Part shown: positions 11,546-63,472 of the stretch, piece after piece
Numbering within the stretch: the stretch's first letter is position 1
Layout: every line of letters starts with the position of its first letter
DNA from: Brachycybe producta
Lineage: Eukaryota; Arthropoda; Diplopoda; Playtdesmida; Andrognathidae
Length of the DNA stretch: 64,000 nucleotides
Direction of reading: 5' to 3'
Assembly: GCA_036925085.1 (NCBI GenBank)
Contig: JAUPFP010000102.1
Span: 1 to 64,000, forward strand
Notes under the pieces: model-generated
What the model was told of the DNA's origin: nothing
The model's input: the letters and a program-made list of their open reading frames with translations, nothing else
The model's database searches: none
Made by a program: the position numbers and the translations under genes

Positions 11546-12149
11546 ATGTCCCTGAGTCCCAAGCACCACACGACGCCTTTTTCAGTCACCGATATTCTAA
11601 GTCCTATCGAAGAATCATATAATACTACAACAAATCCGAAAAAGTCGTCGTTAAGTAACAGCCTGGAGGTGTGTAGTATCCCGTCCCTCAGTCCCCCTTC
11701 CTATAACAGAAGTGTGAGTAGTAGTAGCGGTAGTAGCAGTACTGGGCCAACATTGCCACCGATTTTATCCGGTTCTCCGTCTCTGACTTCTTCGTCGTCC
11801 ACTTTACTTCAACATCATCATCATCATCATCATTCGAGTGCCGCCGGTCCACTTCATCAGGGACTACATTCGTTTGGTCAACATCAGGCAACTTCAAGTG
11901 CCGGTACGTCTGCCACTGCTACAGCCGCCGCAGCTGCTGCAGCAGCCGCCGCCGCAGCCGCAATGAGTGTGCCAGTAACAAATCCCTACACGCACATGCA
12001 CGTACCGCAATTGTCGCATCACGGGTCAGCGTTTCCGTCTCAGTACTGTAACGGTGCCGATATAAGTCATTATGGAGAGCACGTGCGACAGACGGCCACC
12101 GCTGCTTCGGCTTGGTACGGAGCCTCCACAACGGATCCAAGATTTGCAA
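11546..12149 (+). CDS. Nkx2.1 (scro): Nkx2.1 coding exon 1
   Basis: Codes for residues 1-201 plus the first base of codon 202. The donor A|gtgagt is strong and gives DPRFA|ISRLMGSS across the junction, the same junction motif as insect scarecrow. It contains the TN motif, poly-His and poly-Ala tracts. Confidence 0.93.
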
Positions 12150-13920
12150 GTGAGTTCGATTTTGTTTTCTAAAATTCATCCTTGTGTTAATGATAAATTT
12201 GATCAGAATTCTATACGTTAAACGTTTATAAAGAGAACTCCATATATGGTTTGTGAGGGCTAAAAGGGTTATATGGTTGGAGTTGGTGCTATTAGTGCCC
12301 TTTGAGTTAGGGCCCATATTAAAAAATCTCATCAAGAGCCAACAACTCTTAGGGTTGTAACACATAAACCACTTTTGGAGGTCAATTTCGACTGCAAAAT
12401 GAAGTTGCAGATGATTACAAAGTATTTTTATGGAATGATATGGTTTAAGCAACAATCCAACTTCATTTTGCAGTCGAAATCGACCACCAAAAGTGGTCTG
12501 TTTTCCAAACCTGAGGCCCTTGGCATACAGACCACGGTTGGTGGATGATTTCGACTGCAAAATGAAGTTGAAGGCGGTTGAGTTTGTGGTTGCAATGTAT
12601 TTTTATCGAAAGATTCGAAGTGGTCAGTTTTGGAAGCAACCCGACTTCATTTTGCAGTGAAAATCAACCACCAAAAGTGGTCACTGGTCATGCACTATGT
12701 GTTCTGAATTAAGAAGTTTTATAAACAGCTGATTTTTCAATTCTGGTTGTTCTACACTTTAAAGAGATTTTGAAAAAAGAGTGTTAGAAACTAGAACAGG
12801 TGATGAATCACTTCATTATTGCATTTTCATGTTGATATCTTTCAAAATAAACGTTTTATAGACAAAAATTTAAAAAAAATATTGTAGGGTCCTTTTCAAA
12901 CTGCCATAAAAAGTTTATTTAGGAAGATTTCAACATGAAAATGCCCTTAAGTGATTTCAATACCATTCTAGTTTCTAAAACACGTTCAAGTTTCCTTTAT
13001 TTTGCACCTGAGGCACCTGAGATTTGTTTACACTTTCAAACCACCTTAATCAATGTGTGTCTTATATTATTATCTTTTAATTTGTACAATTTGCAGTTTC
13101 TCGACTAATGGGTTCGTCGCCCGGAATGAACATGAACATGTCCAACATGGGAACATTATCAGCATGTAGCATGGGTGACACAAAACCCATGCAATTTCCT
13201 TTAACTCAACGCCGCAAACGTCGAGTCCTCTTCACACAGGCTCAGGTCTACGAACTAGAACGTCGTTTCAAGCAACAGAAATATCTATCAGCTCCAGAAA
13301 GAGAACACCTGGCCAGTCTGATTCACCTGACGCCAACTCAGGTTAAAATCTGGTTTCAGAACCACCGTTACAAATGCAAGCGACAGGCCAAAGAAAAAGC
13401 GATGGCCGAACAGAATGCACAGATGCAACAGCAGCAGGCATCGCCTCGAAGAGTCGCCGTGCCCGTCCTTGTTAAAGACGGAAAACCTTGCGGCTCTTCG
13501 ACGGCGGGCTCCGAAGGCGTCGGCGATGTTTCAATGCAACAGCAACAATCTGGACAACAACAACAGCAACAACAACAACAACATCATCATCATCATCAAC
13601 AACAGCAGCAGCAACAACAACAACAACAACAACAGCCGTCATCCTGTTCACAACAACAACAAGGTGTTGTTGGTGGACATCAGACAATGGGTAACAGTCA
13701 CTTATGTGCCACTGCGGCCGCCGCAGCAGCCGCCGGACTTTCTAGTCGCATGAGTTCGTATAGCAGCAGACAGACTGCAGCTCTGACTGCTGCCAACGTT
13801 AACGCTGCGGCAGCTGCGGCTGCGGGTCTGATGACCAATGCACACCATCATCACCATCACCATCAAATTAATCCAACAGTGTGTCCTTCGTATTTGCAGT
13901 TGCAGGGTCGTACCTGGTGA
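11546..13920 (+). CDS. Nkx2.1 (scro): NK2-class homeobox transcription factor Nkx2.1/scarecrow (two coding exons, 475 aa)
   Basis: Sequence-specific nuclear transcription factor of the NK2.1 subgroup; in animals these act in anterior neural, pharyngeal/foregut or thyroid-related development (family knowledge). Joining 11546-12149 to 13097-13920 gives 475 residues. Visible in order: an N-terminal TN/EH1-like motif TPFSVTDIL (residues 9-17), Ser-rich region, poly-His (90-96), poly-Ala (127-139), HVPQLSH and QYCNG motifs shared with vertebrate NKX2-1, homeodomain at 240-299 with WFQN and the NK2 hallmark Tyr at homeodomain position 54 (residue 293), the NK2-specific domain [16 protein letters not shown] (about 318-333), long poly-Gln/His tracts, and a conserved terminal LQGRTW. 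I start at 11546 because MSLSPKH is the family's conserved start; an in-frame ATG at 11492 would add 18 residues without known similarity. NK2.1 versus NK2.2 assignment rests on the MSLSPKH start and C-terminus. Confidence 0.97.
12366..12505. mobile_element. MITE family M3, first of two tandem copies
   Basis: Inverted ends ACCACTTTTGGAGGTCAATT...CGACCACCAAAAGTGGTCTG enclosing TTCGACTGCAAAATGAAGTT and its inverse. No ORF. Lies in the Nkx2.1 intron. Confidence 0.75.
12517..12690. mobile_element. MITE family M3, second tandem copy
   Basis: Starts GCCCTTGGCATACAGACCAC and ends CAACCACCAAAAGTGGTCA, with the inner GACTGCAAAATGAAGTTG / ACTTCATTTTGCAGT inverted pair. Only about 11 bp separate it from the preceding copy. 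Confidence 0.75.
12716..13055. mobile_element. Foldback element FB1 in the Nkx2.1 intron
   Basis: Left arm AAACAGCTGATTTTTC, GTGTTAGAAACTAGAA, CATGTTGATATCTTTC; right arm TTTCAACATGAAAATGCCC, ATTCTAGTTTCTAAAACAC, TTTTGCACCTGA. The arms are inverted around an AT-rich centre. It ends about 40 bp before the splice acceptor. Confidence 0.8.
13097..13920 (+). CDS. Nkx2.1 (scro): Nkx2.1 coding exon 2 (homeodomain exon)
   Basis: Follows acceptor ttgcag and ends at TGA 13918-13920. It encodes residues 202-475, including the whole homeodomain without an internal intron, the NK2-specific domain, mixed CAA/CAG poly-Gln and CAT/CAC poly-His tracts (about 13,540-13,660), poly-Ala (about 13,714-13,732) and a second poly-His (13,845-13,864). 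Confidence 0.95.
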
Positions 13921-14126
13921 CCCATGTAGTTAAAAAAAATCCCCCGGCACAAAAAATTCTCCCTAAATCCCCTATTAAAATCACTCAGCATGAAAATTAC
14001 ATAGGAAAACTTAGACAATATTATTTTAGTTCAGTCGAATGCGAGGGACTGAGAAGCCAAGAGGGATAAGTGAGATTTTTTTTAATTAAAAAAATGGAGA
14101 TAATTTCAACATTATGTCAATGAAAT

Positions 14127-14132
14127 AATAAA
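14127..14132 (+). terminator. Candidate polyadenylation signal AATAAA for Nkx2.1
   Basis: First AATAAA downstream of the stop codon, about 207 bp away. Another lies at 14,386-14,391. In AT-rich DNA this hexamer is common, so usage is uncertain. Confidence 0.4.
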
Positions 14133-14554
14133 GAATTTGGAGAACAATAGAAATCGCTGAAAAAGCTACTCATTGCTGCTTTTATAGCCGTCAAAACGTA
14201 GAACTATACTGTATATAACAATGATATCTATTGAGATCTCTCACTTCGATCTCAATTTACTCAGAACGTTACTTTCGTCACTTATTCCTCTTGACTTTTA
14301 AGCCACCTCGTGTGATAAAATACACAGAGACCATAAGAGGGAGTAAAAAGGTTTTTGTTTTTTGTTTGAAATAGCAGCTAAAATGAATAAATGCTAAATT
14401 AAATGGCTCTTATTGGCCCTAGGATTGCAAAAAAAAAAAAACTTAGTAAAATCATTTGTATTTCAGTTGAGGATGATCCGATACATGACATTACTGATGA
14501 CCACTGGTCAGTGTCCTCCTCACTCACTAATGTTTAAAAATATAATATTGACAT

Positions 14555-14880
14555 TAAGATGGTTTATTAAAGTGTAAAACGCCTCTTCGAACTCTTTAAT
14601 TATTCTGTATTTCAGGTGCAAAAAATGAAGAAAAACTTCAACGTGTTTTAGAAACTAGAATGGTAGCTCTTAATCACTTTAAATGTATTTTATGTGGGTT
14701 ATCTTTCAAAACAAGCTTTTTAAGCAGACTAAATTGTTCTATTTTTGGTCTATAAAAAGTTTATTTTGAAAGATATCATTATGAAAGAAAAAAATACTAT
14801 TAAGGTGGTCGAGCTAGGTCCATTCCAGTTTTTAAAACATGTTCAAGTTTCTCGTTATTTTTGCACACTTGCAAACAAGA
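14555..14880. mobile_element. Foldback element FB1
   Basis: Left arm AGTGTAAAACGCCTC, TATTCTGTATTTCAGGTGC, GTTTTAGAAACTAGAATGG; right arm TTTTGAAAGATATCATTATG, CAGTTTTTAAAACATGTTC, GTTTCTCGTTATTTTTGCAC. The centre is AT-rich. Confidence 0.8.
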
Positions 14881-15569: not shown

Positions 15570-16014
15570 TAATAATAATAATAATAATAATGTTAGTTGT
15601 GTAACTTATAGAGAAAATAACCAATTTGATCTCTTAATTGGTTTTCTTTAAAAAAAATTGTCGATTATTAAAAGTAGAAAAATTAAATAGAATCATTATT
15701 TTTTTTTTTTAAAAATCCGTTTTTATTTCATAATTATGTAAAATGCACTATTTTGTCATTAGGCCAATTTCTGTGTGTAGGCCAAGTGAACTTTCCGCAC
15801 CATTTAATTTAAAAAACACATCAGATGAAAAATCGGAAATAAATGTTTTGTTTTGTTTTTTCTTTCAACTATTTTTGAGTCTATGATTTAATTATTTTAA
15901 CAATGAAAAGGGCATATGAGAAATTCTTCAATAGGACCTCAGAAAATGTTTAAGACACATGAACACATTTAGGTATCAACCTCAAAAACCTAAAAATGTG
16001 GGAGGAAAATCGCG

Positions 16015-16300
16015 AAAAGAGTCACCAAAAAAAACTAGAATGGTAGAAGATTATTTGCTAAAAGTTGTTTCATGGCAATATCTTAAAAAATAAAACATTT
16101 TATAGTTCAGTTTGAAAATGACTGCCTTTTTCCGGGGTTCCATTAACATTTCATTAAAAACTAAGTTTCCCCTTTTTTTTTTTTCGAAATGTCATAAAAA
16201 GTTTATTTTGAAAGATACCATCATACAAACAAAACTTTTAGCATTATCACCAATTATACTTGTTTCTAAAAATGTAATGTTTCCTCTGAAAAACCTTTGC
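16015..16300. mobile_element. Foldback element FB1, diverged copy
   Basis: Left remnants AAAACTAGAATGGTAG and GCAATATCTTAAAAAATAAA; right remnants ATAAAAAGTTTATTTTGAAA and TTGTTTCTAAAAATG. The arms are more diverged than in other copies. Confidence 0.65.
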
Positions 16301-16879
16301 GTGAAAAAAAACATACATTTTCTCAAAACAGCGAAAGGAGACATCTGTTCGACCTCCATTTTTTTTAAGTTATAGGTTTTTTCTCTCCTGTTGAAATCGT
16401 GCAAATTGCACGACGACTTTGCTAGTTTTTCTTTATTCACCATGTTCAATTGATGGCAAAAAGTTCCTAAAACATTATAATTATTATCCGTTTTTTTTTT
16501 CTCGCGGGTTTCTAATTCATTACGATGATGTTAAATTTGGTGAAATGTTTCTAGATGCTGAATATGGTTACCTAAGTAAAACTGTAAGTAAAAAAAAAAA
16601 GATATATGATCCCATCTATCTCAAACACCCTGTACATAGTCTATAGTTTATACAATGGTTCTATTTCTGTCATTATTATTATATTAGAAGAAAAGGGCTA
16701 TAAATAGACGAAAAAAAAAGGATAAATGCACATTATTAGATATTATAAAGTAGCATTGTGTTTTATTTCTATTTGAAAATAAATGTCGTTATTCAAATTA
16801 CAAGAGTTTTCAATTTTTTTTTTTCCTCCAAAGTATTTCATTTTTTAAGTAAAATCTTTAAAACTACAGTATTTTTATA

Positions 16880-17188
16880 CAGAAAAACTGAAAGTGTTTT
16901 AGAAACTAGGAAATTAGCTAAATCACTTAATGGTATTTTCATGTCAATATCTTTCAAAATAAACTTTTTATTAAAAAAATTTTAAAAAATATCATCTCAC
17001 TTAAAGTTAAGTCATTTTCAAACTGACATAAAAATTATCTTAATTTAAAATATATTCAACATGAAAATATCTTTAAATCATTAAGCTTACTCTTCTAGTT
17101 TCTAAAGCACTTCACGTTTCTCATAATTTTGCTACAGAAAAAGATGGAATAATCAAAGTTTACAGGGCGCTTAAAACCAGCTTAAAGT
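16880..17188. mobile_element. Foldback element FB1
   Basis: Left arm GAAAGTGTTTTAGAAACTAG, TTTTCATGTCAATATCTTTC; right arm TATTCAACATGAAAATATC, CTCTTCTAGTTTCTAAAGCA, TTTACAGGGCGCTTAAAACC. Confidence 0.78.
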
Positions 17189-17201
17189 AAATATTTATTT
17201 G

Positions 17202-17242
17202 CAGACCTATTTTAGCACTTAGTAAGTGCTAATATAGGTCTG
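17202..17242. repeat. 41-bp near-perfect hairpin
   Basis: CAGACCTATTTTAGCACTTA is followed, after one base, by its inverse with a single mismatch. It is an isolated short palindrome between FB1 copies. Confidence 0.85.
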
Positions 17243-17579
17243 TGAACCAAACCGAATAAGTGCTAACAATGCATTAAGGAAAATACACAATAATTAATTA
17301 AGGTCAGGGTGTGACAATTTAAATTATTTTAATTTAAGTACAATACAGTAATGATTTTTTTTTATCTCAATTGACTTTTAAAAAACAAAATTTGTTCATT
17401 TTCTTGTCCAATTTCAGTTAAAATATCAAATGAAATTTCCTTAAAAATTTCATATAGATTTTTCATATTTTCATTTTGCACTTGAATAATATTTTTCTTG
17501 TTGATTAGATCTATTGGTAGAAATCGATGCAGTCAAAATTAAAATGAATAATAAAAAAAAATGGAGAAATTTGATTGAA

Positions 17580-17967
17580 GCTGATTTTAATGTGTAAAAA
17601 AACGGTTCCTCGAAATCGTGTTATTCAATATATTAAGAGAAAAAATTAAGAGAAACTTGAAAGTGTTTTAGAAACTAGAAGGGTACCGTAGCTAAATCAC
17701 ATAGATCTATTTATTATCAATTAGGATATTTTAAAATAAGCTTTTGATGTCATTTTGAAGAGAGAAAAAAAAATCCAACATTAAGCAGATCATGTTTTTC
17801 TAAATTTTTATTTATAAAAAGTTTATTTTGAAAGATATCAACTTGAAAATACCATTCAGTATTTCGTTCTAGTTTCTAACATACTTTCAATTTATAATTT
17901 ATAGAGTTAATTAAGAAATGCAGACTAGAGATCAAGAGTTCCAAAATCAGCTGTTTATATAACATTC
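17580..17967. mobile_element. Foldback element FB1
   Basis: Left arm GAGAAACTTGAAAGTGTTTT, AGAAACTAGAAGGGTA; right arm AAAAAGTTTATTTTGAAAGA, GATATCAACTTGAAAATACC, TTCTAGTTTCTAACA, CCAAAATCAGCTGTTTATAT. Confidence 0.8.
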
Positions 17968-18258
17968 TAAAGTCTAAAGATATAAAATATAAAAAAATAG
18001 AATATTCAAAAATGTTCCTAACTAAATTTTTTCAATCAAAGTTTTAAATTTCATTAAAGACAAACAATAGAAATTCATTGTCATCATCATCATCATCAAC
18101 AACAACACACATGATAAACATAATATAATATACGAGAGTACTTTAAAATACACAACCATAAGTTAACTCTCTCAAAACGTACAAACAATCAAAACTTGAT
18201 TGATGATATTTATTTAAATAAAATAAAATAATTCTTCTTTATCATCATCATCATCATT

Positions 18259-18577
18259 GGGCTCGGATGTTTATGCAAAATATATTTAAAGCAAATGTTT
18301 CTCAATTTGTGGCCCAAGTGCCAATTGTAAAGTAATCAGCATCATTAGAACAACTGCAATTATGCCGTTTCTAAATTTAAAAAAAAAGGTTAGTTAGAAG
18401 GCTAGATGTCTGGTTACTATCAGTTGTCTATTAAGACTTGTAGCCTCTAACCAGTGTTTTTGATTGAAAAACAAAATTGTTGTTTGATTTAAACGGAATT
18501 ATTACTTCACAATTGACTCTTGGAGCCATAGATTTGAAAAAAACATTTGCTTGATATTTGCATAAAAATCCGAGCCC
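18259..18577. mobile_element. MITE family M1, copy C
   Basis: Starts GGGCTCGGATGTTTATGC and ends GCATAAAAATCCGAGCCC, with the internal ATGTCTGGTTACTATCAGTT shared with copies A and D. TA follows the right end; the left flank has TT. Confidence 0.85.
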
Positions 18578-20694
18578 TAATCATAATTATTCCTTAAATA
18601 TGCAGATGTACAAAACAATAGTTCAAAATGCAGTATATTATATTTGTTTGAAAAAAAAATGGGGGATGTTTTTAGAGGAGGAGGAGGAGGAGGAGAGATG
18701 GAGGGAGGAATTGTTATACACTGGGCTTTCCATCTTTAATCCAAATCATACGGTTTGCTGGATAGCTTATTACAGCGGAAAAAATCGACTCAACTTAGAA
18801 ATTGAGAAAAATATTTGTTAAAAATTGATTGAGCGAACTAATCGCTTCGATATATACACATTTATTTATTAGGAACCACCATCCCATAAAATACATTTGG
18901 TCCCATAATAATAATAATAATGTAAAATACAACTAAAGGGAGGGAGGAGGAGGCGGAAGAGAAGAAAGGTCATACAGGGTCCTATGATATGTATATAGAA
19001 AAGGTTACCAATCACTTTGATTTTTTTATTATTAAATCGATTATTATTAAATCTTTTTTTTTTGTGTGTATGTCTATATTATACAGATGTGTCTATAAAA
19101 TGTTTACACTGCAATGCAAATCAATGCAATTCAATTTTATTAATTTTATAATTAAGTGTAAATGTTACAATAAAAGTTAAAGTCGTTTCTAGCTCTCCTT
19201 TACACCTACAATTTTTACTAGCATGTTTGTGTCAATTAAATGATGAATGTTTTGGTGAATGATTTGGTACATAAAATGTATAAATTATTTTATAAGTATT
19301 AATCGGCGGTTATACACTAGTAAAAGTATTCGAACATTTTTACCTAAAAAATGTGCGCAGAACAGTGCATAATGTGACAATTTATTGTATATCTAACCTT
19401 GTGACCTTCTAGACAAGAGAATTAAGAGAGAGAGAGGTGTGCTAAATATGTTGCAGAGCGCATTCTATATAGCTTTGTAAATTACATAAGAATGATGCTG
19501 ATCCTAAAAAAGTGCTCTAGTAGACGAGATCATTTAAGAAAAATAGAACATATTCCACATTAATGCAACTTTGAACAAATAATTTAACATTCACGTCGTT
19601 ATACATATACAATGTCACATTTATAAATTAATTTATAAATTAATTTAAGACATAAATGTAGGTGTAAAGAGGGCTTTTACCTATGTCAGCAATCCGAATG
19701 GATGACATTTTGAAGACTTGAAATAACATTTCATTCAAACATAAACAAAATGCTATTATATTTAATCTTTATTGTATCATTTACCTATTAATTAAAAAAT
19801 TATCAAATTAAATTTCATATAATAAACATGACAGTTATTATTAACAACCAAAATGTGTTACATTATTTTTGAGACATACTGTATATATTCAGATAAAGTC
19901 CCTTTTACTTTTTTTGTTTGTAAATTTTTTTTCTATATCGAAATATTTATTTATTATTATATTATTATTATTATTATGCTTTGTTAGCTTTAGTTTAGCT
20001 TTGGTTATATTTTCAGAAAGACTAAATAAAGGGGTGGTGGTGTCTTTCATTATTCGTGATATTCGAATTGGAATGAAATTTTATTTTGTGTGCTATTCTT
20101 TTCATCTTCTATTTTTCTTATTGTATGTTATGTGATCATCTTTTTTTTTGTGATCTTTTAGAGGAGGGAGTTATTTTTTTTGGTTGTTGAAAACTGAAAA
20201 GGACCCAAAGGTCCAACCCCTAGAGAGAGAAAAAAAAAGTTTGTGTTGAGTTTATTAAGAGTCATTTGAGCATATAATTCTTCAAGAAGCTTATTTATTC
20301 ATTATTATAATATATATGAATTCATCATCCGAATATTATGAGAACATATTATATTATTCAATGTATATTTTAAAGATCAGAAAAGTTTTTGAGAAAAAAA
20401 AAAATCAAAGATGAATAAATGTAAGAAATAGATTTTTTGAGAATTAAATTCAAAAGAAAAATTTTTTTTCTCCTTCATATTATTTGACGTTAACTTTTCG
20501 GGAGATTTATTTCTTTACGTTTTGTCCACTTTTTATTTATTCAAAAAGTCCAGGGCCAAAGGGCATATAAATAAATCCTTAATCCCGTATTTAAAGTTCT
20601 AACTTATTATTAAAAACATATTTTATTTGTATAATGTTGCAGGAGAGCTTTTTTTTTCTATTGCAAATACATAACTGGCAATTTGAGGGAATAA
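18578..20694. other. Gene-free AT-rich stretch
   Basis: No credible coding sequence; includes a GAGGAG-rich patch near 18,677-18,710, a 14-bp direct duplication TAAATTAATTTATA near 19,623-19,645 and AT-rich filler. Confidence 0.6.
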
Positions 20695-20908
20695 TTTAGA
20701 AACAATTTTTAAAAAGAAAATTAAAATGTTTAGAGTAATTTCATGTTGATAATATTTTAAAATAAACTTTTTTTTATAAAAATGACAATTTGAAAACAAA
20801 GGCAAGCAAATTAACCATCATATTTCGTATCTTAATTCTTCAAACTGGGATAAAAATTGTTTATTTTTAAAAATATTAACATATTGTAAAAATACTTTAA
20901 TTGTCTTA

Positions 20909-20927
20909 CCCCCCCCCCCCCCCCCCC
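20909..20927. repeat. Poly(C) run, 19 bases
   Basis: Uninterrupted C homopolymer, uncommon in such AT-rich DNA. Confidence 0.95.
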
Positions 20928-20999
20928 AATGTAATTTAAAAAATGATAATAAAAAAAGCTGGGTAGAAAATATTACTATTATATAATATATAATTATTA

Positions 21000-21310
21000 G
21001 GGCTCAGATTTTTGTGCAATATCCGGCAAATGTTTCTCATTTTGTGGCCCAAGTGCCAATTGTGAAGTAATCATCATCCATCATTAGAGCAACTGCACTT
21101 AAACATTTTTTTCTAATCAAAAATACTGGTTAGAGGCTAGATGTCTGGTTACTATCAGTTGTCAACTAGAGTTCTGGCCACTAACCATCGTTTTTGATAG
21201 AATAAAACTAATTGTTGGTTTATCTATAACGGAATTGTTACTACACAATTAACTCTTGGGTCACAGATTAAGAAACATTTGCTTGATATTTTGCATACAA
21301 ATCCGAGCCC
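21000..21310. mobile_element. MITE family M1, copy D
   Basis: Starts GGGCTCAGATTTTTGTGCAA and ends GCATACAAATCCGAGCCC, with TA at 20,998-20,999 and 21,311-21,312. Palindromic over its whole length apart from the centre; no ORF. Confidence 0.88.
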
Positions 21311-21484
21311 TAATAATTATATTACTATTACTGTATTATTATATAAAAAAAATACTATTGACTCAGCTACTGTTCTAGTTTCTAACACTTAATTTCCCTT
21401 CAGTGTTGCACCTGAAATGCATAAATATAAATATGGAAGGTTGTGAATTTTATTTAGAAGTTATGTTTAGATCTCAGATTTGTC

Positions 21485-21570
21485 AGCTTGTATATATTGC
21501 TAACAAAACTCTGCTAATTACAGCTAATTAGCTGTAACTATAGCAGAGTTTTGTTAGCAATATACAAGCT
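21485..21570. repeat. 86-bp loopless palindrome
   Basis: Left half AGCTTGTATATATTGCTAAC through CAGCTAA is followed immediately by TTAGCTG through GTTAGCAATATACAAGCT. The halves differ only by a two-base indel and a few mismatches. It could be a young inverted duplication or a MITE remnant. Confidence 0.88.
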
Positions 21571-22514
21571 ATATAGAAGCTAAGATAAAATCTATACCAA
21601 AACTGACCAGTGGACATCCTATATATAGTAAACTTAGATGTTTTTATTATTATTATTATTATTATTGGAAAAACGAAACAAGCTTTCACACAAGATTGTC
21701 CAGCCAAAATTCCATTTAAGGTTCTGTTTTTTTATTATTGGTGTTCATAGTGAAACTCTAAGCAAAAGCAAACAAACATGCTAAAGCTTAGAAATCTATA
21801 GATCTAGCACATTTTCTTTTAGCTTATATATAAATGTATTGCTATAGCCTATATATATCTATTCAGTGTATTTTCACCACCCTCAAACAACAACAAAAAA
21901 ACCTTTTCTTTCTAAAACACACACACACATGGCGGCCAAAGATATAGATTTTTCTTATTTTGAAACACGTTTCTCATTGCTTCTTGCCTTTTTTTTTTTC
22001 AACAAAAAAATTTGTGTCTGGAATTTTTTTTATCTGTAGTAAAAAAAAAGAACAACTCACAAGAGACAAGTGAAAATATATATTATTGCAAATACAATAT
22101 TGAGAATGAAAGACAAAAAAAAAATCTGAGAGCAAACGTTTTTGTCCATCAGCTTAAGAAATGAGAAATTTACTCTCAATACCCCGGTATACATAAAAAA
22201 AAAAACCCTGAGAGTTGTGCGAGTGCTGCATGTTTGTATACTGAAAGGGGAGAAACTAACATAAGGTTTCTTTTGGTGTAGCTCTCTCTATCTATAGACT
22301 AGAAAGGCTGTCATTCCCTTTTGGAGGATTAACATTTGACGTTCAGTAGCTGCACGTGCAAGAGCAACTAACGCCATGTTTGCTACACGTGCAGGTTTAA
22401 TACGGAAATAACCAAAATTAAAGTTTGCCTTTTGGATTCAAAGCTTGTATATTGTGTGTCTCAGTATACGAGCATAGATTGGAATTACGGTTTCACAATT
22501 AAGGCTGAATTACT

Positions 22515-22654
22515 GAAACGCCAACCTAAATAAGCGCCAAACTTAACAAATGCCAAACTGAATAAGCGCCAAACTTAACAAATGCCAAACTGAATAACCG
22601 CCAAAACGTTTGGCTTTTAATTTGTTCCATTTGGCGCTTATATTCAGGGCCACC
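22515..22654. mobile_element. Hairpin transposon family H1 (GCGCCAAACTGAATAA arms), short copy
   Basis: Tandem GCGCCAAACTTAACAA / TGCCAAACTGAATAA units form the left arm; the right arm is their inverse, ending TTATATTCAGGGCCACC. The element is flanked by perfect 8-bp direct repeats GAATTACT (22,507-22,514 and 22,655-22,662), which supports real transposition. There is no ORF. An 8-bp duplication is typical of hAT-class transposition. Confidence 0.85.
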
Positions 22655-22755
22655 GAATTACTGGCAAGCTGATGAGGATTAATAGTATAAGCTGAAGCGG
22701 AACGTTGAATGTTAGATTGCAATGTGGCTGAGTATACTATAGTATTCATGTCTTG

Positions 22756-35540: not shown

Positions 35541-35546
35541 TTTAAT
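35541..35546 (-). terminator. Candidate polyadenylation signal ATTAAA for XRN2
   Basis: TTTAAT on the + strand reads ATTAAA downstream of the XRN2 stop, about 185 bp beyond it. I saw no closer AATAAA. In this AT-rich context the assignment is weak. Confidence 0.3.
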
Positions 35547-39286: not shown

Positions 39287-39321
<35 letters not shown>

Positions 39322-39436
39322 AAAGAGTGCAAATACAAATAACTGCGAATGGGCGCTCGACCTTTGTCAATAAATAATATATATCTCCATGCAACATCTT
39401 TCTCTGTTTTTTCTGCTAATATATATACACGTGTGC

Positions 39437-39493
<57 letters not shown>

Positions 39494-45400: not shown

Positions 45401-48400
45401 ACTCAGCTGCATTAACACAAATATGGTTAACCACATTATTGAATGGTTAAATACATCACTTCCTGGGGGTTTAAACAAATTTAGCCTACAATCAACATGG
45501 CGGATAGTTGAGAGTATTTAAATTTTTGACTGACTGACAGGACTTGTTTAACCAGGAAGTGACACAAACTCATTTAACCACAGTTAAGTAAATTTTAAAA
45601 ATAGAAACTCATACAACAGTACCAGTTGGAACTTGTTTGCAGTTAACTATAATCTTGGTTATGTAACTGCAGTAAATTTTAAGTGGAACTGAGGTATAAC
45701 CGGTTGGGATTTTTTATAACCGTGCAGAGATCTCTGGCTGACAAGTCTTGTTGTGTAATTTTGCAGTACACTTTCTAACAATTTGTTGAGTAGTGTGACA
45801 CTTTCAGCTTCAGACAAGACAATTTAAACTAGGGGGAAGTGGTTATACAATATAGGCCTATACTGTATAATATGAACTCTCTGATGTTGAACAATCTCTC
45901 TCTCTCTCTCTAGCAAAAAAAAAAAGTATTGAGCAAATAGCAGGAAAAAAAAATAGAAAGAATGAGAAAGAAGTGCAAGTAAACAGCACTGAGAATGCAA
46001 TAGAAATTTCTAAAGAAAATGTTTGCATTCAAGGAGTTCGCTTTACCAAAACAATATATAAGCCAATACACATACATACACAACTTTACCCACCCACAAC
46101 ATACAGACATTATCTTTCACCATTGTGTGTGTGTGTGTGTCTGTTGTGACTGTCTTAATCGAGATATGATGATGTTATATGTACTATAGTGTGTATGTAT
46201 GTGCACGTGCACATTTTCGACCTAGTAGTGTGCAAATAGCCAAATTACATCCATGCACAGCAAGTCCTCTTTATTTGTAAATGTGTGTGTCTGTCTGTCT
46301 GTCTGTCAGTTATATACAAAACTATATGTACATAGAAAAAACCCTGATGTAGGTCTCTCTCTATATATATATGAAAACCGTGACAGAGCAAAATATAAAA
46401 AAAAAATTGCAGCAAAATTTTCTTTGCAATGGCTCTTTGCTTTTAAACAAAACAAAAATGAAAATTCACTCATTTTTATACATACAATTTTTAGATAATT
46501 CAAGTTTGTATGCCTTGCTTGCATGGGTTAAGCTTTTATATGTATGTACTTTATGTACATTTCAATGTAAATCTTATGTGTGTGTGTTTTTGTTCAACCA
46601 TGCATCTATCTATCTATTATCATGAATGATGCTTTTATCATTATTATTATTATGTGCACACACAAAAAAGGCACAAAGATAAACACACATAAGAACTTTG
46701 TGAAGTTCAAAATTCATGCATTTATTAAAAAAAAATAGGACGTTACTGTTTTATATGTGTGCTTTTGCAAAAAAAAAAAATATAAATTTATTTTACCTGG
46801 TGGTGCAGGTAAAACGCTCAATATTTGAAAATTAATAATCTAATAATGAAAACTACACCGTTTGACAAACTTCAATTTGAGTGTTTAGAAATTAAATTCA
46901 AATAAACCCTCGAACTTTGGTTATTTTGTCTTTCAGCCGGTCTGTCAGGAGTAAAAAAAAAATTTAGGGATGGGCGCCTTTCGAAAATCCTAACCTTTAA
47001 TAAAACTTGTTAAAAACTTTGTTAAAATTAGTTTTAACTCCATTGACATCCAATAGAAGCATTCACTAACAAAAAAAAACCGGCGATTGTTGCAATTTCG
47101 TTGGTCTGACCCGGATCACCAATATCATCACCTTGTGGCCTTACCCTGAGTGAAGCCACACTTGTTTTTTTTATTATTAATAATTTAATATAATTTCATT
47201 TATTTGTATTTTCTTAATGAATAATATAGGATTCTTATATGAAGGATTCGAGAGATTCGAGAACCTTTTAGGATTCGAATTCGAGAAAATTTAGGATTCG
47301 TCCCCCACCTCCAAAAACAAAAAAATTAAGAGAAACATAAAAGGTGTTTTTAAAAGCTAGAAGGGTAGCAGCAGCTCACAATCAAGTTAATATTTCCCCG
47401 TTGATATATTTTAATGTTATTAAAAGTGAGTACAATCCCTATATAACAATAAATTTAGTCTATACAAAACGTTTATTTTGAAATATTGTATTTTATCACG
47501 ATCAAAAATAGTAATTATGAAACAGTTCTAGTTTCTAAAACAAGTTCAATTTCTCATTATAGTGTTTGTTGCTCCTAAAATGCAGAATATACATTTCGAA
47601 AAATCCAGCTATTCATAAATCATCTTAACAGAAATTTAATTTTGAAATTTGAAATGTCATTAACTTTTTAAGTTAAAATTAATAATTGATAAGAAATATT
47701 TCACACAAAAAAGGTACTGACATTGGTTACCAAAATTGAAAATGTCATTGATTTTTTTTTACATTATTAAATCAGATTTGCCAAGTTTAAAACTTTCTAA
47801 GATTAACTAGTCTAAATGAGTTAAAGTCTTTAAAATAAGTGAGAAAAGGGATGGAGTTGTTATTTTTTTTATCAGGAAAAGTTGTTTAAAAAAAGTGTTA
47901 AAACGGTGGCGCTGATCAAGCGCCAAATTGAATAAGCGCCAAATTGAACAAGCGCCAAACTGAATAAACGCCAGATGGAACAAATGCCAAACTTAATAAG
48001 CGCCAAATTGAACAAACGCCAAACTGAACAAGCGCCAAACTGAATAACCGCCAAAATGTGATAAACACATTGTTAGGATTGGTTAGGTTAGGTTAGGATG
48101 TTCTGTTTGTAAATCTGCACAGTCTGACATCTATAAAGCTCACAATATTTGGACCATCAGAATTTACAAAAAACCTGAATAACCCCCAAACTGAATAAAC
48201 GCCAAATGGAACAAACGCCAAACTGAATAAGCGCCAAATGGAACAAACGCCAAACTGAATAAGCGCCAAATCGAAGAAACGCCAAACTGAATAAAAGCCA
48301 AAAATTTGGCGGTTATTCAGTTTGGTGTTTGTTCCATTTGGCGCTTATTCAGTTTGGCGTTTGTTCAATTTGGCGCTTATTCAGTCGCCCCGTTAAAACC

Positions 48401-51400
48401 TAAACATTTCCTTTAACATTTTCAACTGTTGCAACTATGAAATGTTTCTTCTGACACATTTTCAACAGTAAACCCATTTTACCTGCGCCATCTGGTATAA
48501 TTTTAAGAAAACAAAGAATGACTGACCACCACCCCCCCAATCAACATCCTCATTTTTCTTCAATAAACAAACATTCTCTCAAAAAATTATATTATTTTCA
48601 TTCAAAATGAGGCAGGATTATATTATTATCATTATTATTGTTGTTTTGAGATGTGATGGAAGGGTTAAGAGAGACAAGAGAGGGAGAGAAAGAGAAAGAA
48701 GATTTTAGAAGGCGTTAAAGGACCTTGAATGTTATTGTAATGGCCAAAGGGCCTCAAAAATATAATGTAGGCTTTACAACTTAAAATAACAGAGACCCTT
48801 TTTCATGCTGAGAGAGAATGGACAATTGAAAAGACCCTTGACATTTTCGTCAGTCCAGAGAAAGAAAAGGGTCTTAATCTGAGTCAATGTTTTTCCAACT
48901 GTCAGAGACTGTCACATCCAAATCTGGGAGAACTCACAAATGGGCATTGGGACTCTTCTTTCTCTCTTCATATATTTTGTCACTCTCAAGGTTTGTTTAT
49001 ATAAGGTAAAGAAACAAGCTAAAACTGCTCGTCGTTTTCATCTTTTTTTTTTTTAAAAAAAAAAGGAATTTACAATAATAAAATATGACAGAAAAATATT
49101 TTCTCGCGTTCTGGATTTTTTTCATATTTGAAATGAAATTGATTGGTCAATACAAGGTGTGGCAAAAACGCTTAATATCATTACTGCTAAATTGAATTAA
49201 AAAAACCAGCTAAATTTAGCGAAAACCCGTAATTCAACAGTAACACACTGTATGACAGTCTTAAAAATAACTATCATATTTACAGTTGTCAAATGTAGCT
49301 TATAACTTTGTAACATTCACAAAATTACAAAATGTTTTTATGACAAATATTGTCATATATGACTAACACTAACTGATGTACAGAATAATATGACAGTCAT
49401 AAAATAGTAGTGACAATCATAAGGTATTATTGTCAACATTTTGTGACTTTTTTTTTCTTCTGTAATATGAGTGAGGCTTCAGATACTTTAGATCTGTGTA
49501 CACACATACACCCTGTATAACAATATTAATGAGGCGGATATAATTATTATGCTAAGTCATAACAATAATAATGATGATGATGATGATGATGATGATCATC
49601 ATCATCATCATAATGAGGGACCATGAAATTAAAGAGAGAGAAAATCGAATTCTTCTCGATTTGTCTATCTATGTGTGTGTTTTGTACTAAATGAATGATT
49701 TTGCCTTTTATTATGTAATGAATGAGGTGGGATGAAAAGCTTATAATAAACGATTAGTGAGAGGAAGGGAGATATATTTATTGTAGAAAGACATGTTCCT
49801 ATTGTTATATCAATTGATTGTGTGTGTGTCCACCTATGGAAACCGACTGACTCTCTCTCTCTGAATCCCTTTGAACCTTATTACATCTCTCTCTCTCTAT
49901 CTCTCTCTCTCTCTCTATCTATCTCTCTCAATTCCCTTTTGCAAAAAAATAAAAACTTCAAACACACAAACAATGCAATTAATGATGCTTCTTATTCAAT
50001 TTTGCTCGTTAATCTCAAAGAGCATCCAAACACACAAAATTCGCCCACTTTGTCGCAAACAAAAGAATTTTTTCATCAATTTCCTATAGCAATAATAAAA
50101 ACATACCCTTCTCTTGTTATTTCCCATACAGTATATATACATATACTGTATATGTCAAGATAGAGATAGAAAGAAAGAAAAAAAAAATGCAGAGGAGGAG
50201 GACATTTTGTTTTTAATAAAGTTTAAGTGTGTGTTTACAGTAGAGATGTTCATTTTAATCTATAAACCCATCCATGAAGAAGAAGAAGAAGAAGACAAAA
50301 AAAAAGATAGATGGACCTTTTATCTCAACTTAAAATGTTTGAATTTTGGTGGTTTTAAGGGAGTATTAAAACATTTCTCTCTTTGTCTATCTGCTTCTTC
50401 TCTTCAGAAATTCATAATAACCAACATTCCACACATTATAGAAAAAAAAAAGCCTGAGTGACAACTTCAGTATATGTACACCTGTGACATAGGGCACCAT
50501 TGGCTCCTGAGAAAAGTTGTGCCAAATACTCATCTAGATTAAAATGTTAGTTATAGGGTCAGAGGAACTCGGCATAAAATACAACTATCTCTAATGCCAA
50601 AATGCAATATTATACTTTTTTTTTAAAAAAGTGTATGTTTCAATTTTGTATTAAAAATACATGAATGATGAATTAAGACCTTGGCACACAGGCCACTTTT
50701 GGTGGTCGACTGCAAAATGTTGTCGCATGTGGGTGGACTGTGGTTGCAATGTATTGCTATAAAACAAAGATGCCAGATATCGGCATACAAACCACACTTT
50801 CGACTTCACTTTGCAGTCGAAATCGACCATCAAAAAAGTGGTCTGTGTGTCAAGGAAATTAATTGTAGTTTGTATTAAGATGTATTTTGCACAGTTCTAT
50901 AGTTAAGGTTAGGTTGATTAAGGTTTTAAACAGAGGCCCGGCCCCCTGAACTCAATCTTATAAACGCTTTGAATTGCAGTTTTACTTAGGTGTTGCTAAA
51001 ATTAACAATTGTGCAAATTGAACAAACGCCAAACTGAATAATCTTCAAATTTTAAGTGTTGTTCAAGCTCATAAGATGGTTAACGAACAGCTGATTTTCG
51101 AAGTATTGATTATTTTTTGTCTTTCTGGTGCCAAATGAAGATAAACTTGAAAGTGTTTTAGAAACTAGAAGGGTAGCTAGCAGCTCAATCACGAGAGTAT
51201 TTTTATATTGATATCTTTTCAAATAAACTTTACATAAACAAATATTTAAATACAACGTCCGCTTAAAGTTAGATCATTGGGTCAAACTTACATAAAAGTT
51301 TTATTTTAAAAGATATGAAACATGAAAATACCCTTAAGTGATTGAGTTACCCTTCTAGTTTGTAAAACACATTTAAGTTTACCTTCATTTCAGATCTGAA

Positions 51401-54400
51401 AGACCGATTAATCAAGAGTTCGAGAGGTGTTTTAGCAGTTATTCAGTTCGGTACCTATTTGGCGCTAGATCAGCGCCACCAAAATTAACTATACCTGTAT
51501 TATGCAGTTTTCATAATTAATTGTTTTAAAAACTAGAATAGAGAGCAATGAATAATTTACGTGCATTTCCTATTCTAAATTATAATTTTGAAAATAATTT
51601 TAATTTAATTTTGAAGTTATACTACAAGAAAAAGAAAAATTCCGAAGTTAAAAAAAAACTTCCTCAAATCAAATAAATTATTATTGTTTGTTTTGATTCC
51701 ATCAACTATTAAAATATAATTTAGTATCTTCATTTGAGCATGATGAAATGATGAATTTTTTTGTGTGTGTTCAACATTATAAAAGCATAAAATCCCTTAT
51801 TTTTCAACGATATTTCTCAATTGTTGTTATTTTTTGATAAATTTGTACGCCTACAATGAGACAAATCGCATGATTTCAAATGAATAAACGTCAATTTTTT
51901 TTCTGTCTCTTTTTGGTGGGTCTTGGGGTCGGTTAATACTAAGGGCAAACACACACACAGAGAAAAATGAAAAAGAAGCAAAAAGACAATTTTTCCGGAT
52001 GAGTGCATATTAAACCATAACACACACACATCCTCCGATTTCCATCCATTATTCAATGTAAAAGTTATATAGAAATATGGCCGAAGTCTCTCTCTCTCTC
52101 TCTCTCAGGAGGGAAAAAGAGAAAAAGGGGGGCAAAGTTAGGACACTAATTATCGCAGAGGGGGGGGGGGGATAAAAAGAGAGGGTGGATTCGAATCAAA
52201 ATATCTCTGCGACAACCATAAAGACCTTTATAGATAGGGCCATATACTATGGACTGACTGCTACCATGTCAACACTCCCTTGTATCATATGGGGAGGGGG
52301 GATTGTGTTTTACTATTATATTGTTTGTTATATGGTGGCATTTATGTTGTCAAGGTGCACGCAGTGACATAGAATGGTGACATATTGCTAGACAGAGACT
52401 CATGTTTGGACTTCAAGAGAAAGAAACCGTAACACAGAAAGAGAGCAAACATAATAATTTCCAATGTGTCTTGTCTCAATAACAACAACAACACACTTCT
52501 GTAATGTACACACACACACATATATACAGTATACAGTATCAACAGCTGGGAATGTGACACACTGTCACATAAACAATATATATACCGAGACTGTGACACA
52601 GTTATACAAACTGTACACACACAAACACTGAAACACTGACACAAGTCACAAAAACATACACGTAGACTACGAAGATACACACAAACGGATGTGACAAACT
52701 ATCACGCAAACATAAACAGTCTTTGACACACTATCGTGCAAACAACATACAAACATGCTGTGAGCTTGTGACACAGTCACATATACAATACACTGCGACT
52801 GCAACACATAGCTAAACAAATGTTGTCAGATAGACACACACAAACACAAGATGGTGTGACACACACTATCATGTAAACATACATTGAGTCTGACATACTG
52901 TCACACTCATATACTAAAGTTTGACATACTGTCACACTAATACGCAGAGGTTGTGACAAATTGTCACATCCTACACAAGAGACTGGTGGCACACAACTAC
53001 ACAAAAGCTAACATGCACACGCAAAACAGAAGAGGCTGTGATACATTGTCACAACTTACACAAGAGACCCTATAACATTGTCACAACACAAGACTAACAC
53101 AATGTCACACAACTTACACAAACGCTAACAACATGCACATACACACAAACAGAAGAGACTGTGATACATTGTCACACACACACACACACGCACAAAGGTT
53201 GATAAATATACACATGAGCAAATAATAAAAGGAAAATATTTTTCCAATATTGCGCTTGACTTGGTCAAAAAAAAAAAATAAGCCACAAAAAATATGAAAA
53301 AGAGTGACCATTCCGCCCCATTAAATGCTCATGAAAACCTCATAAAAACGTCAAAAACAACTATTTCTTTAATTGGACTGTCAGGGTCCAGTTTTTTTTT
53401 AGTGTGCTTATGTTGTTGTTATTATTATAAGTTATATAACATAAAAAAGCAAAAAGACTTTTTTGAGTTTTAGCAATTATACGAGCAAGAAAAAAAAAAT
53501 CCTCCCATGATATTTCAATTACTAAATAAAACTTCTTTGTAAATTTAAGAACCAAACCAACAAAAAAAAAATCCATATTTTTCATTTTTAAATTTTGTTC
53601 AACTTTAAAAAATGTTTGCAATTTTAATTCGATATTATTCTAAAATAAAATAGCATCCAACTATCTCAAAACAGAGAAGATGATGATGAAGACTCGCAAG
53701 AAGAAGAAAAAATAATTCATTCAAGTTAAAATTGTATGCAATAAGATCAATCGATTATCGGAAATTTCTGATTCCAATATTTCAAACTTAGAAGTGTTGC
53801 AAAAATGGATAAATACAATATACAGAGTGTGGCAACTCTCACATTCGTATTCAAAAACGTTCTGCGTTTTATGAACGACACTTAAAAGAGAAATGGAAAG
53901 TATGTTAAAATCTAGAAAGAGTCGCTGAATCTCTCAATGGTATTTTCAAGTTGATATCTTTCAGACTAAATTTGTTTAAGAGACAAGAAATTTAAAAAAA
54001 AATGTTTAACGTTGTGTCATTTTTCAAACTGACATAAAATGCTTACTTTGAAAGATATCAACATTAAAATACCCTTAAGAGACTGAGTTACCATTTTAGT
54101 TTCTAAAACCATTTTGAAATTTCTCTTAATTTTACCTTGACAAGACAGAATAAGCTAGAGTTTATGTGGCCTTTCCACATTAAAATCAACTTAAAACTCA
54201 ACGCAGAACAACTACACACAATATACCGAGTCTATTTGATAATTTTTAAGCTTAACTTTGTCTTTAAAACACTTTGAAATATGGCCATAACTATCCCGAA
54301 TTGTGTAATTGACACGAAAAACTTCAACTTGATCCGATTTCGAAACTAAGAAAATCAAGACATCATCATTGCAAGATTATGGTGTTCATCCAGATTTTTT

Positions 54401-57400
54401 TCAAAATCTTTCAATATAAAAATAAACATTTTTAAAATACGATGAGAACATTGGACACATTCGCCACACCCTGTATATATATAAGAAAATACAAATGCAT
54501 TGAAATCAATTTTATAATACGCAAAAAAAGATGGTTCGAAGAGTTCTGTGAATGTTTATTTGCTTTTTTTTATGTCAGACATCGCCATATGTAAAAATCT
54601 AGAAAGATCTTTTGCATTTTTATACTAGAAATGTTTTTTTTTCTCTCTCTCTCCTCCCCATCATATAAAGAACTTATTTCAAAGTGAAAAATTTCACTTT
54701 GTTAACCTCCACCACCCTCGTCCTCCCTCACACAAACACCACCTTCATTCACCTTACATATGGAGAAAATCAACCCACTTTATATGCAAGAAAAAGTAAA
54801 ACTGATTGCAAAGTGATGACGAAAGGCTTTAACGCATTTTCTCTCACTCTTTCGATTCACAATTTCGAAGCCAAATGTGACAGGCACCAAGAGAGAGAGA
54901 GAGAGAAAATAAAAAAAAAACTAGAAGGAAAAGAAGAAAAAAGAGTGAACAAACGACCAAATTTCGTATTGTGGCCCCAATGTGTACATAATATACAAAC
55001 ACAGTCGGTATTGCCTCGATTAAAATGTGGGCGACATCATCTGCATGAATCTCACGCACCTTGAATGCAAAAATACGAAGAAGAAGAAAACACCAACTCC
55101 AGTTCTAGATTTTCCAAACAGAAAATTGAGAAAATAATCGAAAATGCATCTATACAAATTGGAATGTTGTATAAGGACCTAAATGGAGACCTAGCCGAAG
55201 ATTTCGTTTTACTATACGAAATACGAGCATTGGAACATTTTTATACCAAGCATTTTTCGCTCTCCATAATTTATAAATCCAAAACACTTTTATTTAAATA
55301 ACTGAATTAAATCGATATTTAAATTCCACGTTTTTTTTTTTTAAAAAATCAAATTCTTTTCTCAACTTTCTAAATCAACTTAAACTAGATTTAGAAGTTA
55401 AATTTAATTTTAATAAATTTCCAAACAGCACAAAATGTATTATATTTGATTATTTGCATAATTAATAATTAAGTTTGATATGTGCAAGTTAAATAAATTA
55501 CCTTTTCTCTAACATCGAACTGTAGAGAAATTGAAAGTGAGTTAGAAACTAGAATAGTAACATAATTTTCTTACTGATTTCAATCAAAGTAGACTTTTAA
55601 TGAAGAAAAATTTAACAAAGGACGTCTTCTAAAGATCGTTTGCTTAACGTTTGGCCATTTTCAAATACCAATAAGTGATTGAGCTACTCTTACAGTTTCT
55701 AAAACACTGTCACGTTTTTCTTAATTTTGCTCCTGAAAAACTTGAAAATAACCAGAGTTCAACAGACAAACAATTTACACATTAAACACCCACGTTAAAT
55801 AATTCATTTCCCCTTCTAGTTTCTAAACCAATTTCAAATTTACAATAGCTTTTAAATAATGCTTCTAAATCCTTAAGTGATTGAGATACTCTTCCAGTTT
55901 TGAAAACACGTTAAGTTTCTCTTAATTTTGCACCTGAAAGACGTGAAATGACCAGAGTTCGAGGAGAGTTTACAAATTAAAACCACCTTAAGTGATTCGA
56001 TTACTCGTTCTGTTCTTCTTCCGCATAATTTGCAATGGCTATTCATAAACCATTTGAAATATATTTTGTTGATTTTTTAATGTGGTTTAAAAGACTAAAC
56101 GGCTCTCAAACTCTGAATATTCTGTCTTTCAGGTGCAAAATGAAGAGAAAATTGAATGCGATCAAGCTACCCTTCTAGTTTCTAAGACACTTTCTAGTTT
56201 TTTTCTCAATTTTACACTTCTGAAAGACAGAATATTGAAGAGTTCAAAAATCAGCTGTTCATAAATCACCTTAAATCAACAAAGAAGGACCAAAAATATA
56301 TAGAAATCATAAACCACCTTAAATTAACAAAGATGTACCAAAAACATTGAAATTTGGTTCCGATACTGAATGTGAAAAGCTATAAAGGGGACACTAATAA
56401 AAGAAGAAACAATTGCTAAGTCAATTGTATTTACCTTTTCTTATAACAAAATTTCTTTTGGAAAAATAAGAAAAGGGTTTTCTCTTTCTTTCTACCTTTT
56501 CTAGTTGCTTTGAATTTCTCTTTTTTATTCTAGAAGAACTAAGTTGTGATTCAAAGGAAGACGATACGAGAAAGAAAGACGAGCAAAATAAATCAGATCT
56601 AAAGAAACAGAATGTGAAAGTGGGGGGGGGGGGGGGGGAAAAAGAGAAGGAATATAATACAACATGTTGGTGATGATGGTAGAGTAGTGTGTATGTATTT
56701 GTGCGGGTACTTTTCTTTTCTTCGACTACGATGATGATGATGATGATGAGCGATAAGAATCTGTAATGAGACGAGACGTTCCGAGAGGCTGCTTGGAGTG
56801 ATCTTGAAGCCGTTATTCGAGGGTCCTTACGAGCCTGTCTAAACAGTGGGCCAAACATTTTTATAATTACCGCAGTTGATAGGCAGCTGAAATAGCTGAA
56901 GGAGGCGAGGGAGAGAAGAAGAAGAAGAAGAAGAGCAAAAGAGAAATCTCGATTCCGTCGTCTTATTTTCTTCACCGCCTCAGACTCCTTTCATTTGCAT
57001 AGCACTCTATTGTTTTTTTTTGTTTTGTTTTTTGAAGGGAGTTCATTTTTTTTCTTCTTTACGTTTTTGTTTGCTCGCGATTAATATTCATGGATATCTG
57101 ATGCGCTCACTCCAATATCATCGAGTTACATGAGCAACAGCCACGATCGTATCTCCCTCGGAAACGCTCTCTCTCTCTCTCTCTGATTAAAATTAAATAT
57201 TGCAAATTATATCTTTTGAATTGTATCGAGAGAAAAAGAAATGTTGAAGTGGCTCAAACAGTATTTTTGAGGTGTCTCTAGACTGAGTAGACGTTATTAC
57301 AAATAAGAGACCAAATGTTAAGAAACATTTTCATCCCTGATCCATTGAACAAGGAAGGGTTCCTCCGGACAAAAAAAAAGAATGACAATTTCTGCTCTAA

Positions 57401-60400
57401 ATTATTTTGGCCTTAATGATAACATTCAAATTGAACTTTTTCTAAAAAAAATTTGAAAAATTTCCAAATTTCAAATCAAAAGTTGAGAAGAAAAATTAAA
57501 ATCAACATTTTTAACCTTAAAAAGTGCATTTTTAAAGATATCATCATGAGTATACTCTTTGCATATTCACAATGACCAACTAGAACACAAAACCCTTTTT
57601 GAAAAAAACAAAAGCTTTCCTTCAAATTTACTCAAATTAAAATTACTTTCGGGCCCACCTTAACGAAAGAAATGAAAATGAAATAAACATCTGCTGAACT
57701 CTAAATGAGCGAAGAAAAATCGGTACCAACAACATCTACAACAAGAGGCATTTGCCTCCGACCCAACCAACCAACCACCCACCCAGTCACTCACTCCCTA
57801 CCCTCCCTGCACCCCTCATCTTCACCTTCTTTCAACCCCTCACCCCCAAACACACTTGAGAAATATCCTCCAAACCTCCCCTCCCCCACTTAAACTTTTT
57901 AATAACAAATGTGATTCAAATACAAACCTTTTCCCTCCCCCCCCCTTTTCCCTTCACTTCCTCCCCAATTTTCAAACATTTGTGCATTTTCATTCAAACT
58001 GACAAACTGACTGAACCACTTGTCCAATAAGAGAACTTTTTTTTGTATTTATGCCTTATAAATGCTGAATACAGCAGCAGCAGATGGAAATATACAAGTG
58101 GTTATTATTATTATTATTTAACCAAAAAAACCTGGAGAATAAAACTGTTTTTTTCCTTCTACTTCAAACCGTTGGGTTCGTTCCCGCATTTTGAACATGG
58201 AACCACTTCAGTAATATTCACAAACACAAAAAAGAGAAATAAAGACGTAAAACCTTTTCGACCAAAAACTCACCCCTATGATAGAACTGAGATCTTGATT
58301 GATTCCGCATCGGTGGTGGAACGGCTCCGTATTGTCCCGGTGTTCTCTGGACAGCGTGTCTATAAAACACGATAACAAAACAAGAACCAAGTTAAAAACG
58401 AGAAACCAAGAGTGTATTTTTCTGTCTTTGAGAACATTCTTTACGATTTAAAACCTCTGATCATTTACCTTTGCTTAAAAGTATGAATAATAAGATTAGT
58501 GATTACAGATAAGTTTCATTTTTGTTTACTAAAGTTAAAACTAACCCAAGCATTCTTCTTCCGGCCGGTTCTAAAAATGCTCTCTGTTGCGAAGGAGCCA
58601 TTCCGATGACGGGACGCCAGTTACGAGAAGCGTTCGAATCCAAATTTCCTGGTTTCAGTACGCGGAACGGCTCTCTAAAAACGAAAACAGATGAATGAAT
58701 TTTAATTCTTGATAAAAAAGATTAAATTTTCGTTAAGAGTGGCTCATCACTAAGATGTTTTCTGAACAAGTGATTTTCTTATTAGTTTATTTTGAAAGAT
58801 ATCAACATAAAAAATACCCTCTTAAGTCATTGAGCTACCCCTTCTAGTTTTCCTAAGACTCTTTCAAGTTTCTCTTCATTTTGCTCCTTAAATTTAGAAT
58901 AACGAAAGTTTGAAGGACGTTTACACTTTAAACGTTACAATTGTCATAAAAAAGTTTTATAAAAATATCGTTATAACAAAATTCTTTAGCATATTCACCT
59001 AATATTCTAGTTTCTAGCCAAATTTTGAATTTGTGTTTTATTTTCCCTTGGTTACATTTTAAAATAGGCAATTTAAACAATGTTAAATTTTATTAGAATA
59101 TTTTTATGAACGTTTTCTCTTCCTCAAAACTTTCATTAAAAGTTCATTTTTAACAATACCGTAGACCAAAAAAAAAAATGCCAGCAAATTCACTGACTAT
59201 TCTAGTCCCTTGTTAAATTTTGAAATCTAGAAACTACTCTTGAGCCACTTTTAAAAACTACGGATTAATAACAATAACTAACTCGGCTCCCGGAAGACGT
59301 TTGGCTTCAAAGATGTGGTTCGAATCGTATTTTGGATCTCTGAAGCGGATGCTGTAAAAACAGAAACGAAATAAGATGAGAAATGTTTAAACTAAAAAAA
59401 AATTCTCGTTAGAAAACCACTTGCCATACAACCGCATTGTCATGAATATCATCACAACCTGGAACGGGCGACTTCAACGTCCTAAAAAAACAAAATACTT
59501 TTTGAATAAAATTTTTAAAATTTTTAAAAATTAAAACTTTTAAAATAAAGGAATTTGACCAACGTCAAATTCCTTCTTTACGTACGCTCCTGATTCGACC
59601 ACATTCTTCGCAAGCAAAATTTGTCCTGCCAATCCCTTAAACTTAGTTGTATCCAATTCGTAGATCTCGGTACAGTCACGGTGGCCTTCGTAAAGGCCGA
59701 CAAGAAACTCATATCCAGAATGCGAGCGTCCGACGTAAAGCCGATCATCTCCTCTCATGTTTCTTCGAACTGAAAAAAAAACGTAAAAAAAACAAATTTA
59801 TTAAATCGTAGATTAGAAACTCCCGATTCCTTCAAAGATACCTTCGTCTGCGTTAAGTGTCGGATACACTTCCTTAAGTGCCTTTAGAAGACGCTTTTCG
59901 TCAACAAACGGTAAAAGGGCAACACCTTGCCACGCATACTTTTTTCCGTTCAAGTCAATTTTAAAATTGTCTGGATAAAAGTCAAGTATGGGCGAATTCT
60001 GAAACAAAAAAAGCTTCGATTTGTTTTGGAGAGCCTAACGAAGTGATCGACGATGAGACTAACCAGATTACACATGAGTTCACCAAAGGTTTTCGGCAAA
60101 TGTTGTTTACTTGCCGCCGGAAACACACCCATCAGTTGTTCAAGTGGATTGAACTAACACAAGAAATAATAAAAAATTACATGAAAAGATCCATCAAAAA
60201 ATGTTTCTGAACATTCGGCGTTAATAAAAAAAAAACTATGGTTACAGTGAAAGTGTTAGAAACAACAATGGTAAGTGAACCATTTAATAGTATTTTCGTG
60301 TAGAAACAAAGTAAAGATATCATCTGCTTAAAAATAGGCATTTTGAAACGGACATAAAAAGCTTACTTTGAAATATCGCAAACATGAAAATATCATTAAA

Positions 60401-63472: not shown

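Follow-up and report, generated by a model that had tools for sequence, protein, structure and literature searches.

A convergent Nkx2.1-XRN2 neighbour pair in a 64-kb window, very probably a further example of the ancient xrn2-nkx2.1 microsynteny

The closest described system is the xrn2-nkx2.1 pair of spiralians. In the part of their text available to us, Lin et al. 2024 (PLoS Biol, PMC11175523) report that xrn2 adjoins nkx2.1 in each of the six spiralian genomes analysed and that xrn2 is associated with pharyngeal genes in all the deuterostome genomes analysed there. The same passages describe an xrn2-nkx2-msx-cnga block in one coral and xrn2 next to nkx2 in another; some cnidarians were without the linkage, and two sponges were without such blocks. 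The authors infer that the ancestor shared by cnidarians and bilaterians already had the block and consider that the rest of this ancient block was disrupted in spiralians (available text of PMC11175523). This paper was the sole account of the pair itself that we found. The portions available to us of the spider, sea anemone and Xenoturbella literature, which we checked for NK2 or pharyngeal linkage, did not mention xrn2; the string 'xrn' was absent from a squid microsynteny study (PMC9023564), and a paper on genomic regulatory blocks did not mention xrn2.

In deuterostomes, the pharyngeal gene cluster consists of nkx2.1, nkx2.2, msx, cnga, pax1/9, slc25a21, mipol1, foxa and egln3, with xrn2 at its start. 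We take human XRN2 and NKX2-4 to be convergent, and in Drosophila scro and Rat1 are probably not linked, as the earlier note on this DNA supposed. The adjacency of the human pair, also stated in that note, is supported by the coordinates given in the available part of PMC6696953, which place XRN2 at chr20:21283941-21370463 and NKX2-4 at 21376004-21378047, with a gap of 5.5 kb. The gene list in the accessible text of PMC11220097, which gives XRN2, NKX2-4, NKX2-2 and PAX1 in that sequence, is consistent with this.

We analysed a stretch of 64 kb (the window) and found an Nkx2.1 gene on the plus strand and an XRN2 gene on the minus strand. The Nkx2.1 gene has two exons. Exon 1 (11546-12149, +) carries a start codon, a TN/tinman-type motif, poly-His and poly-Ala tracts and a GT donor, and is in frame with exon 2 (13097-13920, +), which has an AG acceptor, a homeodomain at 13210-13401, an NK2-specific motif, the C-terminus GRTW and a stop. 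The two exons join in frame into a spliced product of 475 aa with a single terminal stop, indicating an intact gene. The homeodomain is identical to that of thyroid transcription factor 1 (TTF-1) at 60 of 64 positions. Among solved structures, TTF-1 was also its best match (122 bits), followed by vnd (109) and Nkx2.5 (94); among the NK2 genes compared through these structures, the homeodomain was nearest to Nkx2.1. In addition, the TN motif near the N-terminus, the NK2-specific motif after the homeodomain and the C-terminal GRTW were all read by eye in the spliced product. We take these three features, compared with the vertebrate motifs, to be hallmarks of Nkx2.1. When the homeodomain was used as a query against the 64-kb window, it gave one strong match, the next having an E value of 0.32, and no second homeobox of the NK2 or Msx type was found.

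The XRN2 gene was modelled as 18 exons, exons 2-19, from 63472 to 58274 on the minus strand, supported by tblastn, the Pfam domains XRN_N and XRN_M, the exon chain and PDB homologues. The chain stays in frame throughout, with AG acceptors at 18 of 18 exons, 17 GT donors and one GC donor. With a human XRN2 sequence as the tblastn query, and exon borders then read from the window, matches were obtained for 17 of the 18 exons, the last few being weak (E 0.005-0.01); exon 19 had no tblastn match and is placed by its reading frame and splice borders. Exons 2-19 encode 836 aa, and this product scored 904.9 bits against the exoribonuclease 2 homolog 5fir, whereas the best exoribonuclease 1 entry scored 477. 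We understand 5fir to be a C. elegans protein. In a Pfam scan of seven pieces of both genes, two XRN2 pieces gave the domains XRN_N and XRN_M. Thus, the gene is closer to XRN2 than to XRN1 and carries both domains of the XRN2/Rat1 type. Position 63472, at which the earlier note had set its boundary, is the exact 5' border of exon 2. Exon 1 was not recognisable in 63473-64000, and therefore XRN2 probably continues past the window and runs off its right edge.

The 3' end of XRN2 determines how wide the gap between the two genes is. Two pieces of the minus strand downstream of exon 19 are candidates for the remaining exons. The first, the inferred exon 20 (38563-38452, -), is Gly/Gln-rich, has an AG acceptor and a GC donor, and is phase-compatible with exon 19. 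The second, the inferred last exon 21 (35925-35730, -), is Gly/Asn/Arg-rich, has an AG acceptor, is phase-compatible with exon 20 and is open to a stop. A hexamer of the AATAAA/ATTAAA type lies at 35546, about 0.18 kb downstream of it. We scored open segments of at least 30 aa on both strands for Gly/Arg/Gln/Asn/Tyr/Asp/Ser/His content, a residue set picked after the pieces had been seen, and the two pieces had the top score among 1189 segments, tied with the Gln/His tract of Nkx2.1. They were also the richest in Gly (17 in 30; the next best had 12). Their Gly codons are mixed at the third position, which indicates that the exons are not a pure repeat.

These pieces could instead be part of a different, small gene on the minus strand, or chance open frames, with XRN2 ending near 58.2 kb. 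In favour of that reading, the pieces lack an aligned homologue, exon 20 requires a GC donor, read-through past the exon 19 donor would meet a stop within about 60 bases, and the residues of the composition score were selected post hoc. Against it stand the shared best composition score and the highest Gly content of the 1189 segments, the variation of the Gly codons, and the compatible phases that lead to a stop. The GC donor is likewise not peculiar to this join: such donors occur after 38452 and, elsewhere in XRN2, after 59425. We therefore consider a separate gene or chance frames unlikely, and the two pieces are likely to be the C-terminus of XRN2.

With exons 20 and 21 taken as the C-terminus of XRN2, we accept a convergent intergenic gap of 21.8 kb (13921-35729, no strand assigned). 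It contains no recognised gene, bears repeats and has a GC content of 25-36%. The earlier note had described Nkx2.1 (+) and XRN2 (-) as convergent neighbours 21.8 kb apart. The convergent order is confirmed by both gene models, and no other gene was recognised in the gap; the distance holds with the inferred exons 20 and 21, and without them the gap would be 13921-58273, or 44.4 kb, with the genes still neighbours. Followed in 2-kb steps, the GC content of the window falls to its minimum, 25.5-27.7%, at 16001-22000, inside the gap.

None of the 23 ORFs of at least 80 aa lying wholly inside 13921-35729, all of which were scanned, had a Pfam match at the curated cut-off, and the same was true of the 50 scanned among the 107 ORFs of at least 80 aa in the window, the 23 gap ORFs included. 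The scan covered frames of at least 80 aa, including part of those in the 35.9-58.3 kb stretch; many of the remaining ORFs are simple-sequence or gene-overlapping frames. The best match among the 50, to Tissue_fac at 30165-30509 (-), was dismissed: it reached E 9.6e-4 and 19.4 bits versus a cut-off of 27, and the frame contains simple-sequence stretches. A tRNA scan and an Rfam scan at the gathering threshold found nothing in the window. With one homeobox in the window and 23 gap ORFs free of Pfam matches at the curated cut-off, Nkx2.1 and XRN2 are adjacent as in a microsyntenic block.

Compared with the described systems, the locus shares with the spiralian pair the position of XRN2 beside Nkx2.1, a comparison made by adjacency alone, as the available text of PMC11175523 gives no strands, gap, gene structure or ecdysozoans. 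The human XRN2 and NKX2-4 genes are also neighbours, and their gap of 5.5 kb differs from the 21.8 kb (or 44.4 kb) seen here. The window shares the first two members with the deuterostome pharyngeal gene cluster; the others were not recognised in the 64 kb, homeobox genes being the only members searched for by name. According to the coordinates in the available part of PMC6696953, some 0.11 Mb separates human NKX2-2 from NKX2-4 on its far side, a distance greater than a 64-kb window could show.

For a genome of about 20,000-30,000 genes, a round figure, we estimate that random adjacency of a pair named beforehand would have a probability of about 1e-4. We conclude that the Nkx2.1-XRN2 neighbours found here are, very probably, another case of the ancient and already known xrn2-nkx2.1 microsyntenic pair, in identity as well as in ancestry, and so of the block with which the later deuterostome pharyngeal gene cluster began. 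The earlier note had proposed that the linkage is older than the protostome/deuterostome split. This agrees with the available text of PMC11175523, which goes further, to the cnidarian-bilaterian ancestor; the novelty that the note implied finds no support, since both the linkage and its age are already in that paper. The note spoke of a protostome-like genome, but a deuterostome source would make the linkage equally expected. What the window adds is one sequence-level example of the pair. In animal gene order the pair serves as a stable landmark, and through it part of the 'deuterostome' pharyngeal cluster is seen to be older than the deuterostomes themselves.

We also considered whether the neighbourhood is an assembly artefact in which a contig with Nkx2.1 was wrongly joined to a contig with XRN2. 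The window contains no Ns. A dispersed repeat with the core TTCTAGTTTCTAAAAC has 45 matches, versus 2.58 expected by chance, spread from 2251 to 62750 on both strands; all sections of the window contain it, at densities of 0.52-0.84/kb. This repeat is possibly a family of short mobile elements. The single repeat family throughout the window and the lack of Ns argue against a cross-species chimera, whereas a misjoin of two parts of the same genome would be compatible with both observations. A misjoin would, however, have to recreate by chance an arrangement published for six spiralians (PMC11175523, available text), and we regard an artefact as extremely improbable. Other repeats were seen as well. 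Tandem arrays occupy the left edge of the window at 420-1849: a 39-nt unit is repeated about 10.7 times, a 23-nt unit includes AAATGGC, and further arrays are purine-rich (GAGA/GGGA). Arrays of 16/32-nt units resembling CTGAATAAACGCCAAA lie at 22516-22605 and 47912-48385, and the latter array has inverted arms at 48190-48271 and 48304-48385, of 82 nt and 95% complementary.

The sizes of the XRN2 introns are uneven along the gene. Of the 19 modelled introns, 17 measure 58-645 nt, and the two nearest to Nkx2.1 measure 19,710 and 2,526 nt, sizes that are conditional on the inferred exons 20 and 21. The 19,710-nt intron (38564-58273, -) would be intergenic DNA instead if those exons did not belong to XRN2.

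Why the two genes stay together may be explained by a genomic regulatory block. Under this model, Nkx2.1 would be the developmental target and XRN2 a housekeeping bystander, and cis-regulatory elements of Nkx2.1 would occupy its 3' flank as well as the 3' introns of the neighbouring XRN2. A break between the genes would then separate an enhancer from its target and be selected against, so that XRN2 would be held in place. Long XRN2 introns on the side facing Nkx2.1 are the shape we would expect if non-coding DNA near the target gene is kept, and they would fit an XRN2 gene that harbours putative Nkx2.1 enhancers. The bystander model has been published for other loci (PMC2688929; PMC9023564; both as far as the available text goes). 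According to the available part of PMC9023564, conserved metazoan microsyntenies in a squid show co-expression, and the bystander model suits them less well than it suits novel ones, a result that counts against the regulatory-block mechanism. Within the window, we saw no repeat depletion as a sign of such a block: with 17 matches in the gap (0.78/kb) and 17 in the last two XRN2 introns (0.76/kb), the repeat core reaches the density of the other sections there (0.52-0.84/kb). This usual density gives no sign of repeat exclusion and also argues against a regulatory block. On balance, we give the regulatory-block mechanism for Nkx2.1-XRN2 an even chance.

The adjacency might also be ancestral and unconstrained, preserved by slow rearrangement and chance survival with no regulatory hold. 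The repeats at the window's usual density in the gap are in line with this, as are the syntenic relationships missing in some cnidarians (PMC11175523, available text). Nevertheless, the pair survives in six of six spiralians and in all deuterostomes analysed, despite the disruption of the remaining block that the available text of PMC11175523 infers for spiralians, and inertia alone is, in our judgement, hard to square with this survival. An unconstrained pair is thus a possibility to which we assign a modest probability.

Returning to the regulatory block, its most specific form would be that putative Nkx2.1 enhancers, located in the gap and in the 3' introns of XRN2, have pinned the pair since before the cnidarian-bilaterian split, with the expansion of the Nkx2.1-facing introns alone as the footprint of this constraint. 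We put this forward as a speculative and rather doubtful proposal. The enlarged 3' introns are nonetheless a testable hint as to why the Nkx2.1-XRN2 pair stays together.
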